This document shows positions 1 through 47,388 of a stretch of 64,000 nt of DNA, piece after piece. Numbering within the stretch: the stretch's first letter is position 1; the number at the start of each line of letters is the position of its first letter. Under the pieces are notes generated by a model. The model was not told the DNA's origin. It did not search any database and worked only from the letters and a program-made list of their open reading frames with translations. The translations under genes were made by a program, and so were the position numbers. The DNA lies in NCBI GenBank assembly GCA_964036295.1, contig OZ038471.1:1527001-1591000 (forward strand), read 5' to 3'. This DNA comes from Plumapathes pennacea. Lineage: Eukaryota; Cnidaria; Anthozoa; Antipatharia; Myriopathidae.

Positions 1-7968
<7,968 letters not shown>

Positions 7969-12968: not shown

Positions 12969-17307
<4,339 letters not shown>

Positions 17308-17611
17308 TTACGATCACTTGTGGTTCTTCTTGGTTGAAACGTGTAAAGAAGCGCTGGAAATATTTTCGAGGTTTTGAGATTTTTTTGACCTTTTTGAAAT
17401 GTTTTAAACTTTTTATGTGTTTTTTGAACTTTTTTTCTGATTTTTTTGGGCGATTTTTAGCGTTGTAACGACGTAAAGTCCGCTAAAAAAACGCTTCAAA
17501 GCCTATTACAAGCACTCACACACCGACGCAAAGCAGTGAAGGAAGGAAGTTCGGCCACGCGTACTTTATACCGAATCAGCGGGGGCGCCCATTCCCTGTA
17601 GCAGGGACAGG

Positions 17612-17620
17612 ATGTCATTG
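17612..17620. repeat. Left 9-bp target-site duplication (ATGTCATTG)
   Basis: ATGTCATTG immediately precedes the left terminal repeat and is repeated exactly at 21458-21466 after the right terminal repeat. Confidence 0.85.
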
Positions 17621-18128
17621 GGTTGTGCCTAAATCGTACCAACGGGAAGGACAGCCGCGCAAGACTGAAAACGAGTTTAGACCCGATCGCCTCACGACCG
17701 AGAATCGGACGATGTCGGTAAATCCAAGATGGCTGTCTTCTGTGTATTTCATCGAACGATGAAATGAACAAGCCTTATCGAGTTAAGTGAAATAACATCG
17801 CTTCTTTTCATCATAGTTTTGACGATTATAATACATATTGAACCTCGTGGCGAACTAAACTGTAGAAAATGTGACGTGTCCTTCCCGCTGGTACGGTGTA
17901 ATCGTGTCGTACCAACGGGGAAGGACAGAGTGAAATAACTCGGCTATTTTAGTCGAGGATCATTTTAAGTGAAGAGTAAGTGTATCTTCTATAAAATCAA
18001 GTGGCCTCTCTTTCTTTGATGGTGATTTAGACAACTGAGGCGAACTAAACTGTGGAAAATGTGATGTGTCCTTCCCGCTGGTACGATGGAGTTCGATCGT
18101 ACCAGCGGGAAGGACAGCGGGAAATAAC
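17621..18128 (+). repeat. Left terminal inverted repeat of the Mutator-like element
   Basis: 508 bp, pairing with 20952-21457. It contains one single hairpin arm at the outer end (17634-17652) and full hairpins at 17878-17926 and 18068-18115. A third, more diverged hairpin (18269-18316) lies just inside the TIR. Confidence 0.88.
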
Positions 18129-18316
18129 CAGACTATCTTTAACCGTATCTTCAGTCGAGGATATACAGAGTAAAGTGTACCATCGGAAACTCAAGTAGAA
18201 TTGCTTGACTGAATTATATTTGACACAAAATGAGCCTCACAGTGAAGCAGAGTATAGTAAAGTGTGGTGTCCTTTCCGCTGGTACGCTTTCTTTGGATCG
18301 TACCAGCTGGAAGGAC

Positions 18317-19346
18317 AGAGTGGAATAACTCAATTATTTTAGCTTAGGATGTTAAGATTAAATATATAATCTCTCCTTTAATTGATGTCTCATACTGCTA
18401 TCAAAAAGACTACTGCAGGAAAAATGTTGACAGATAATTTTGCTGAGCTGCCTTCTTGGGTGCCTTGAAAGCTCACAAAGGAGGGCAGGAAGACAAACAG
18501 AACTTTATATATTATGTGTATGGTTGGGTTGATTACTGTGCGAATAAAGAAAAAAATATGTGACACAAGAGTGCTTGTAATGTGTCATTGTTTTACAAAT
18601 TGACCCCTTTCCCTCTACCCATTGTGCACAGATCATTCATGCACAAATAATACAAATTATCCCAACCCCATACAAGAACATGTTATGAGAATGAAACAGT
18701 TAAAATCATGACTTTACAATAACTTCAATGACTAAGAAATTACACATTTCCAAATTTATGGGTCACTATATTTATCTCATGGGATGCTCCTGGCATAAAA
18801 GATAATTTTTTTGGTGTAACTGACATTATACGAGACAACCTGAAATGTTCTGTACACACCTTCGGGCTGCCTTTTCTTATTATATGGTAATATTTGACCA
18901 TTCATATATTCAGTTACTGTCATGTCAGCAGTGTTGCTGAAATACCTCTGATGTTTATATTAAAAAGTCATGACCACTTATAATGTTAATATATACCAAG
19001 TATGAAAGGGATGTTCTATATGTACCATCACTATGTAAATCAAACCAACTGAGCAATTTGAAATAAAACCAGCTCGTGCTCACAAGGCAGGTATAAATAC
19101 TTCTAATCTGCTAACAATTCGTGCGGCATTACAACTACCACTTTAAGAAATATTGCAGCCCTGGAAATGCTATTTGAATATCTTTATTTTCTCGTTTATC
19201 AAAACCCGTAACTCGTCGATTTTCCAGCAACCGTGAAATACAGAAGTTATTAGGGGTTGGGACTGGGTTCTAGTTAAGGTAAAAACGCGCGAAAAGAAGT
19301 TTGACACGACTTTGTCAAAAGAACCTTGGTCAAAAGCGGCACGTTC
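18317..19346. other. Left interior of the Mutator-like element
   Basis: A+T-rich sequence with no credible exon. It lies between the innermost hairpin and the internal ORF. Confidence 0.5.
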
Positions 19347-19953
19347 ATGGATTCTCCTCTGACATCACCGGACATTTCGTCCTCCAAGTCTAAATTATTT
19401 GCATCAACGTGGGAAGAGATATGGAGGATCATTTCAGCGTACGAATCGGAGACAATCAGCAAATTTTGTGTTCGACGAGTGGATAAATCTTTCGGATCAA
19501 AAGGTCAGTCGATTTTACCGCATGTCAGTCTTTGACACCCTGATATCAAACAAAAAAATTATGCTCTCTGAAATGTTTTATGCATGTATATATTTAGCAG
19601 GATCTTTACAGGAGTACCAATGTGGAATAATTATACATTCTTCTTAAGCATTCTTGTGTGCAAAGTTTGAATAACATACGGAGGGGGTGGGGGTAGGGAT
19701 GGAGGAGGCTCGGGTCAGGAGCGATAAGCATTTTCATAAAATGTTCCATATCTTTTATTGCATTGCAACAGACTGGACTGGGATTTCACACCAATGCGTG
19801 CACTTTTGCAGCCCATGCACCAGCAAGATATCAATCCCGTTTGATGGAATACCCTTCCTTTACGTCGGAGAGAAAGAGATGTGGTGCCACCACGGACCAG
19901 ATAAAAATGCGAGCAAAAAAAGGAAGCGAAAAGAGAAAGCGATAAGCGAAGAC
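19347..19953 (+). CDS. Unidentified two-exon ORF inside the Mutator-like element
   Basis: The proposed exons 19347-19503 and 19772-19953 join in phase across GT-AG sites, giving about 113 aa. The first part reads WEEIWRIISAYESETISKF then CVRRVDKSFGSK. The second contains IPFDGIPFLYVGEKEMWCHH, then GPDKNASKKRKRKEK, and stops at a GTAAGC donor. The pattern IPF.G.PF...G...C.HG.D.N...K+++ resembles, from memory, a Cys/His DNA-binding-like N-terminal domain in transposon-derived animal proteins. I cannot name the family securely. No transposase catalytic region follows before the right TIR. It could be the truncated N-terminus of the element's own protein or captured host sequence. Confidence 0.4.
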
Positions 19954-20951
19954 GTAAGCCCCGTAAAGTCCTCTCTATTTCAACCCTGCATAGAGCAAAG
20001 GAGGCTAATCTAATGCAGTTGTGTTTTCTGTAGGCACAGGATCACGCATTTTTAAAAAGGAGAAACTACACTCAAGACTCCAAAAACTGGACAAACATTT
20101 GTACAAATCAAGTTTATTCAGGGACAATTCATCAAGTGGACATATTATCAGTGAAGTATGAAATTTGGAACAGACAAACAAAATCTTATCACGAATTTAA
20201 AAAAATGAAAGCACTTAACCTACCAATGGGAAAAATTAGATAGGTTTTTCAAACTGTAAAAAGTTCTCCTATAGTGTACAGTAAATTGCACAAAGAAAAA
20301 AGTTAGAAAACATTATTTCAAAAATGAATTACTTAAGATGTTTCAATGTCCACTTTCACAATTTCACTAGTATGCTGAAAACTACACAAGACTGGGATCC
20401 TTCCAGTTCTCACAGGTATGTAAAAGTGAATATTACGCATAACAGGGAGGATTAATATATGAAAGCAAGATTGGATATTGAAACTATGGAAAAAATTTCA
20501 ACAATGTAGAATCAGGGAACTTGTTACTTAAAAATTACATGTAGCAGGAGATTAACTCACTTTAATGCTGCATAACATTTTAAGAGGATATTCCCACACT
20601 GAGGACAAAAGCTGCTGAAGATATCCTTAAAGTGTCACTGTCTGCGGAATAAAACAATGGTGAAACAAGTTGCAGATTTTCTATCAATACAGCAGTTAAA
20701 AACTTGTTATTTACTTTTTCTGATGTCTTTTTTTTTTTGGTGTGTGCATCTGTCAAATCATAACATTGCTGTGCACTACTCTTTCTGAAAGCCAATGTAC
20801 ATCACACCAATCAAAAACATTATGAGAAATGCACATATAATAAATATTAATGAAGTTGTCTGCTGCCTGTTTGTTTGTCTGTCTGTCTATCCGGGGTCTA
20901 TCTATCCTTTTATAAGACGATAGTCTTTCCAAGAGCCTGTGAAGTAACTGA
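19954..20951. other. Right interior of the Mutator-like element
   Basis: A+T-rich, without a credible coding region. A possible 3' continuation of the internal gene was sought and not found. Confidence 0.5.
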
Positions 20952-21457
20952 GTTATTTCCCGCTGTCCTTCCCGCTGGTACGATCAACTCCATCGTACCA
21001 GCGGGAAGGACACATCACATTTTCCACAGTTTAGTTCGCCTCAGTTGTCTAAATCACCATCAAAGGAAGAGATGCCACTTGATTTTATAGAAGATACACT
21101 TACTCTTCACTTAAAATGATCCTCGACTAAAATAGCCGAGTTATTTCACTCTGTCCTTCCCGTTGGTACGACACGATTACACCGTACCAGCGGGAAGCAC
21201 ACGTCACATTTTCTACAGTTTAGTTCGCCACGAGGTTCAATATGTATTATAATCGTCAAAACTATGATGAAAAGAAGCGATGTTATTTCACTTAACTCGA
21301 TAAGGCTTGTTCATTTCATCGTTCGATGAAGTACACAGAAGACAGCCATCTTGGATTTACCGACATCGTCCGATTCTCGGTCGTGAGGCGATCGGGTCTA
21401 AACTCGTTTTCAGTCTTGCGCGGCTGTCCTTCCCGTTGGTACGATTTAGGCACAACC
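20952..21457 (-). repeat. Right terminal inverted repeat of the Mutator-like element
   Basis: 506 bp, the inverted counterpart of 17621-18128. Hairpins lie at 20964-21011 (perfect arms) and 21153-21200 (one arm mismatch). The shared short open frame (MFISSFDE.HRRQPSW) in both TIRs is a by-product of the repeat, not a gene. Confidence 0.88.
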
Positions 21458-21466
21458 ATGTCATTG
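21458..21466. repeat. Right 9-bp target-site duplication (ATGTCATTG)
   Basis: Exact copy of 17612-17620, directly abutting the right TIR end CACAACC. Confidence 0.85.

Positions 21467-33764: not shown

Positions 33765-47388
<13,624 letters not shown>

Follow-up and report, generated by a model that had tools for sequence, protein, structure and literature searches.

A very probable non-autonomous Mutator-like element upstream of PABPC in Plumapathes pennacea and the unusual transposase plan of its parent type

What kind of element has inserted upstream of a polyadenylate-binding protein (PABPC) gene in the antipatharian Plumapathes pennacea, and what transposase would have moved it? The window analysed here is a stretch of 64,000 nucleotides (contig OZ038471.1 of assembly GCA_964036295.1, here C10:1527001-1591000 of the 290-Mb assembly), in which a transposon of 3,837 bp spans 17621-21457. 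An earlier note, made from the sequence alone, had described it as a complete and probably recently moved Mutator-like element (MULE). Judged from comparison with its relatives in the same genome, the feature is, with a probability of about 0.95, a non-autonomous MULE that was inserted by cut and paste; a parent type of ~9.9 kb would have given rise to it by a single internal deletion.

The element begins with GGTTGTGCC and ends with GGCACAACC, and ATGTCATTG abuts both ends as a perfect 9-bp duplication. The terminal inverted repeats (TIRs) had been claimed to end exactly at matching 9-bp flanks, and this is what we find:

17612..17620, no strand: left 9-bp target-site duplication ATGTCATTG (sequence and duplication count)
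17621..18128, plus strand: left TIR, 508 bp, 5' relative to the transposase gene (inverted-repeat search and copy comparison)
20952..21457, minus strand: right TIR, 506 bp (inverted-repeat search and copy comparison)
21458..21466, no strand: right 9-bp target-site duplication ATGTCATTG (sequence and duplication count)

TIRs of this length are expected of a MULE. They differ from each other by 4 substitutions and 4 gap columns, and the inverted-repeat arms fall into three pairs: 17621-17919/21159-21457 (299 nt, 99%), 17918-18093/20986-21161 (176 nt, 99%) and 18095-18128/20952-20985 (34 nt, 100%). Both TIRs are made of units of ~190-200 bp, each centred on a palindrome of a 19-bp motif, CGTACCARCGGGAAGGACA, whose pattern has 11 matches in the window, every one of them within the element. 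On the left side the motif is arranged as follows:

17635..17653, plus strand: terminal single copy of the 19-bp motif (motif pattern search)
17877..17927, no strand: palindromic pair 1 of the motif (inverted-repeat and motif search)
18067..18116, no strand: palindromic pair 2 of the motif (inverted-repeat and motif search)
18268..18317, no strand: palindromic pair 3 of the motif, subterminal and beyond the 508-bp TIR (inverted-repeat and motif search)

The right TIR holds one full palindromic pair and one terminal copy, and in a further pair one partner carries a change private to the window copy.

A search of the whole genome with the 21-base end pattern, allowing at most 2 mismatches, gave 283 matches (152 forward and 131 reverse), while the reversed 21-base end, used as a control on the same genome, gave none on either strand. 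From these we assembled 34 paired insertions, namely the window copy, 13 with both outer ends among 20 fetched TIR loci, and 20 pairs picked by hand. Searching the genome with the TIR was the check that the earlier note had proposed, and it returned many copies: 24 of the 34 insertions are flanked by an exact 9-bp duplication, or 26 when one mismatch is allowed, and exact duplications of 4-8 or 10-12 bp occur in none of them. When flanks were re-paired between different insertions, identical 9-mers were found in 0 of 1122 pairings. Together with the empty reversed control, this excludes chance as the origin of the ends and their duplication. A preference for G+C-rich target sites is not claimed, as the 30-bp flanks have 52% G+C against 41.5% in the window, yet the 1-kb flanks of 14 insertions have 39-45%. 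One other copy, L017, has its left TIR interrupted by ~2.1 kb, and a 374-codon frame in it (L017:5210-6331) appears by eye to be a LINE-type reverse transcriptase.

One sibling, L023, sits within a local tandem duplication, in which two adjacent units are element-free. When the flanks of L023 are joined, their alignment to one of these units runs through the insertion point at 96.1% over 1,578 columns and shows exactly one CCAACACCC there; the alignment to the other does so at 95.7% over 2,016 columns and shows CCAACACCT. Through these tandem paralogous units, cut-and-paste insertion is shown by an empty site, for this sibling only. Furthermore, L009 and L020 are inserted in one minisatellite, the uninterrupted units of which span the joined L009 flanks at 85-90%.

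A long sibling at C3:6021597 (L027 and L039, hereafter the C3 sibling) indicates what the window copy has lost. It is ~9.8 kb long and damaged; its right TIR ends 168 bp early and its other TIR is whole. Bases 169-2466 and 2465-3837 of the window element match it on either side of a gap of ~6.1 kb, and the two are collinear on both flanks of the deletion at 98-99%, which places the junction as follows:

20085..20086, no strand: internal deletion junction, with ~6.1 kb of the C3 sibling missing and the two matches overlapping by 2 bp (alignment to the C3 sibling)

Deletion derivatives are typical of MULEs. The earlier description as a complete transposon therefore stands for the insertion and fails for the element itself, which is internally deleted. 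The same deletion is present in four more insertions (L009, L010, L011 and L012), giving five copies of ~3.84 kb, any two of which are 1-13 substitutions apart in 3,839 aligned columns; the window copy has 4 substitutions and 1 indel of its own. The presence of this exact form at five sites, like the ends, TIRs, duplication and deletion themselves, is read directly from the sequence. Because the five insertions carry one deletion with so few differences and few private changes, the deletion form has moved as such, and recently. Recent movement had been proposed before on the strength of high TIR identity, and the conclusion holds while that argument lends it little: the 4 substitutions between the two TIRs of the window copy include 2 common to all four siblings, 1 common to three of the four and only 1 private one, so that 3 of 4 are shared by at least three siblings and we rejected dating by TIR identity.

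The interior of the window copy retains exons 1, 2 and the beginning of exon 3 of a transposase gene, with both introns frame-preserving and the exon limits set by eye from GT/AG signals:

19347..19503, plus strand: transposase exon 1 remnant, MDSPLTSP... to a GT donor at 19504 (limits read by eye)
19772..19953, plus strand: transposase exon 2, ALS2CR8 (PF15299) match at E 9.7e-10, from AG acceptor to GTAAGC donor (limits read by eye)
20034..20085, plus strand: start of transposase exon 3, truncated by the internal deletion (comparison with the C3 sibling)

In the C3 sibling the gene goes further. ALS2CR8 is matched in three frames (E 3.1e-10, 2.2e-8 and 4.4e-10) in the profile order 8-55, 59-96, 173-233, and after it comes a match to ZSWIM1-3 RNaseH-like (PF21056; E 1.4e-13, 51.3 bits) that overlaps one to MULE (PF10551; E 1.1e-5). 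The MULE match reaches 28.8 bits in the genome scan, above the cut-off of 27.6, with a profile that is broad, as the genome-scan control was also positive in 3 of 14 known prokaryote genomes. At the C-terminus there is a match to Herpes_teg_N (PF04843; E 4.6e-7), and the same domain aligns with the solved VTD-family chain 8add_A (E 2.8e-11), including its QC and D-S-H positions. By homology, then, the C-terminal domain is assigned to the VTD deubiquitinase family, with catalytic Cys and Asp-x-His aligned. A SWIM finger (PF04434) is readable only in the sibling L021 (E 2.5e-4, 21 bits against a cut-off of 19.6). Rows compared with related loci share several motifs: CDFHRE is invariant (4 of 4), TNNG-ERQN is kept in 3 of 3, and FM-D is present in 5 of 5, as FMTD in four and FMVD in the fifth. 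LLDATYKT is found in 3 of 5 rows and LLDTTYKT in L047; the frame of L048 starts later. The parent transposase would thus consist of an ALS2CR8 (CaRF-type) domain, a MULE/ZSWIM RNase-H core, a SWIM finger (taken from L021) and a VTD domain. The earlier assignment to MULEs is borne out by the 9-bp duplications, by the 283 TIR ends and by the MULE-type catalytic domain in a longer sibling with the same left end.

An ALS2CR8 fragment in a deleted element could also mean that a Pack-MULE-like element had taken up a piece of an ALS2CR8 (CaRF-type) gene of its host, and the genome does offer a possible source, in that the best ALS2CR8 match, C1:3456373-3457935, consists of three pieces covering the profile and may be a stand-alone host gene. 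The C3 sibling, however, holds the same exons, in profile order, ahead of its catalytic exon, for which reason we take the fragment in the window to be the N-terminus of the transposase itself. Genome-wide, the profiles give 99 matches for ALS2CR8, 11 for MULE and 8 for ZSWIM1-3 RNase-H-like, the last being positive in 0 of 14 control genomes. Six of these eight have an ALS2CR8 match at most 600 bp upstream on the same strand; since three of the six (C2:18172000, C3:5863940 and C5:15625798) are copies of one family at ~95-99%, the pairing is seen in about four lineages. Together, the pairing and the exon order indicate that ALS2CR8 belongs to the transposase lineage; we consider gene capture by the window element very improbable and rejected it. 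The ancestor shared by these families may nevertheless have captured the domain long ago. Two further observations on this domain may be recorded. At ~18 places on C1-C8, C10 and C12 there are ALS2CR8 fragments near-equal in extent and score (profile ~6-44, in frames 68-75 codons long), and these may form a further amplified non-autonomous family. At C7:16609827-16612613 there are two adjoining ALS2CR8 matches, each of which spans profile positions 42-231 in a single run free of stops.

The related loci carry a different C-terminal part. Among 10 frames scanned from them, Peptidase_C48 is above the cut-off in L036, L034 and L032 and below it in L037 and L035, PHD is above the cut-off in three (L036, L034 and L037), and L031 has no profile match. 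One family shows ALS2CR8, RNase-H, SWIM, C48 and PHD end to end (C2:18170164-18175578, L041 and L036), with a near-identical copy at C3:5862395-5867510; its C2 element, 18170152-18177144, has 67-bp TIRs beginning GGTCAG. In a second related family, on C8 (L047 and L032), ALS2CR8 and C48 are seen.

These relatives bear on whether the VTD domain belongs to the transposase at all. It might instead be a foreign insertion in the C3 copy, for example from a Helitron: VTDs are best known from Helitrons (PMC9741609, in its available part), and within the family of the window element the domain is seen in one copy only. Yet it continues a 569-codon frame that starts inside the SWIM region. In L021, where the domain is missing, the junction carries duplicated bases and has the look of a deletion with filler in that copy. 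Moreover, the related family also has a peptidase, C48, C-terminal of its SWIM finger. We therefore regard a foreign origin as doubtful and keep the VTD domain in the parent plan.

The PHD finger of the related loci raises a further alternative, that the element is of the Rehavkus or Foldback type and not a MuDR-type MULE. In the portion of the MULE survey PMC6446971 available to us, Rehavkus is given a 9-bp target-site duplication, TIRs of 26-400 bp, a PHD finger and a minisatellite. Our set shares the 9-bp duplication, long TIRs (with internal repeats) and the PHD finger, here in related loci. In Rehavkus the minisatellite precedes the 3' TIR; the C3 copy has a tandem repeat, which lies inside its open frame and does not adjoin a TIR. 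However, none of the 7 frames scanned from the C3 copy matches PHD, whereas the family of the window element matches the MULE and SWIM profiles, and the survey table assigns to Rehavkus PHD and not SWIM (PMC6446971, same portion). A Rehavkus or Foldback assignment is unlikely, and a MuDR-type MULE is the more probable reading.

Several observations weigh against the overall reading. An exact duplication is absent from 10 of the 34 insertions. Two of these, L015 and L064, have a 9-bp duplication that is off by one base, the flanks of L012 seem by eye to differ by a one-base indel, and in L010, L022, L060 and L066 no duplication was seen; on one side of L010 lie the first 94 bases of another TIR. 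The other three, L072, L076 and L084, have the outer flank TCGCCATGTTTCAT in common, as though each belonged to some larger unit that was copied, and on this ground they may be copied or chimeric loci. These ten insertions, and the three with a common flank in particular, would fit an assembly artefact or segmental duplication in place of transposition. Such an origin has almost no probability in view of the 24 exact 9-bp duplications, the lack of identical 9-mers between insertions, the element-free units at L023 and the perfect duplication of the window copy. The transposase evidence has gaps as well: the MULE match of the C3 sibling scores 26.3 bits in hmmscan, just under the cut-off of 27.6, and an in-frame stop and a frame change interrupt the SWIM stretch of this sibling. 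The family's catalytic exon was found once in the genome and its VTD domain also once, with two distant VTD matches on C12 and C7. No copy was seen that combines an intact parent gene with two complete TIRs, and C2:18170152-18177144, the only related element with its ends examined, has no duplication of 8-11 bp.

Under the MULE reading, window-type copies would be mobilised in trans by transposase from a parent-type copy. The transposase would bind the repeated 19-bp motifs of the TIRs, with the ALS2CR8 or SWIM domain perhaps making the contact; its DDE RNase-H core would excise the element, and joining would proceed with a 9-bp stagger. The VTD-family domain of the parent protein may shield transposition proteins from proteasomal degradation, by analogy with what has been suggested for Helitron VTDs (PMC9741609, available part).

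The position of the insertion is of interest in itself. The exon next to the element gives a match to polyadenylate-binding protein, the best chain having E 1.6e-72, and the insertion had been placed 320 bp upstream of the PABPC start codon, a distance that our coordinates confirm, with the ATG at 17301-17299 on the minus strand and the element starting at 17621 on the upstream side:

17299..17570, minus strand: PABPC 5' region, flanking context beyond the element (protein match; promoter parts putative)

On the minus strand this region contains an A-rich leader at ~17462-17350, a pyrimidine tract at 17549-17538 and TATAAA at 17570-17565, and the left duplication begins 42 bp upstream of this TATA-like box. 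In 5'-TOP genes transcription starts in a pyrimidine tract, and the tract at 17549-17538 is the putative PABPC transcription start site in our reading of the promoter; if transcription begins there, the TIR would lie ~70-80 bp upstream of the start. A scan of the PABPC side with a bacterial promoter consensus, which is not apt for an animal, found nothing. PABPC is presumably expressed at a high level, and an insertion in what is probably its proximal promoter offers a natural test of the effects of such elements on transcription.

Elsewhere in the window there are two tandem arrays. A large minisatellite at 2473-4636 has a 41-bp unit in ~53 copies with 88% matches, and is crossed on the minus strand by three overlapping frames without a stop (707, 760 and 750 codons); the other, at 37128-37830, has a 52-bp unit in 13.6 copies with 96% matches.

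Compared with known systems, the window element is ordinary in mechanism, and it is the architecture of the parent-type transposase that is unusual. The HM of MuDR-6_HM, one of the animal MULEs, stands for Hydra. Animal MULE groups include Phantom, Ghost (with cnidarian members) and MuDR-6_HM (PMC6446971, available portion), and the family of the window element is like them in its 9-bp duplications, long TIRs, MULE RNase-H core and SWIM finger. It differs, together with its relatives, from what Table 1 of that survey holds, in which there is no ALS2CR8, Ulp1 or VTD/tegument-like entry and in which MuDR-6_HM has an ovarian tumour (OTU) domain; a term search of the available portion of PMC6446971 gave 0 occurrences of CARF, ALS2CR8 and Ulp1. 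VTDs have been described mainly in Helitrons, and cnidarian VTDs fused to transposon-associated domains have been remarked on (PMC9741609, in its available part, where the word MULE has 0 occurrences). The C-terminal domain of the window family resembles these tegument-like deubiquitinases in its match to 8add_A and its aligned Asp-x-His, but VTD Helitrons are rolling-circle elements (PMC9741609, available part), whereas the VTD here is on a cut-and-paste MULE.

Plant Kaonashi MULEs carry an Ulp1-like (C48) peptidase. The related family described here resembles them in joining MULE and C48 domains, while the family of the window element has a tegument-like domain instead. Vertebrate CARF (ALS2CR8) and ZSWIM1/3 are host genes, and they are the namesakes of PF15299 and PF21056, the profiles with matches in the N-terminal part and in the catalytic part of the transposase; the likeness is drawn through these profiles. 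Among the matches listed in our literature search, no title or abstract opening linked CARF/ALS2CR8 or ZSWIM to a transposase or transposon. In the available parts of two further papers, the two searched terms occur in unrelated places (PMC10898136) and ALS2CR8 is listed as LINE1-silenced in cancer (PMC5454887). The combination of ALS2CR8, MULE, SWIM and VTD was not met in the literature searched, which covered few subscription papers and did not include Repbase, and its novelty is provisional.

The transposase plan unites domains that, in the literature consulted, were discussed only apart: a CaRF-type DNA-binding domain, a ZSWIM-type RNase-H core and a ubiquitin/SUMO peptidase. We tentatively propose, at somewhat short of even odds, an animal MULE lineage in which a CaRF-type domain precedes RNase-H and SWIM and the C-terminal peptidase is exchanged between Ulp1/C48 with PHD and VTD; on this view CARF and ZSWIM1/3 would have been domesticated from a single ancient transposase of this plan. 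Confirmation in named genomes would provide a testable origin for CARF and ZSWIM1/3. Likewise, if the plan is confirmed, VTD deubiquitinases would be found on a cut-and-paste element besides Helitrons, suggesting that DNA transposons repeatedly need to have ubiquitin or SUMO removed.

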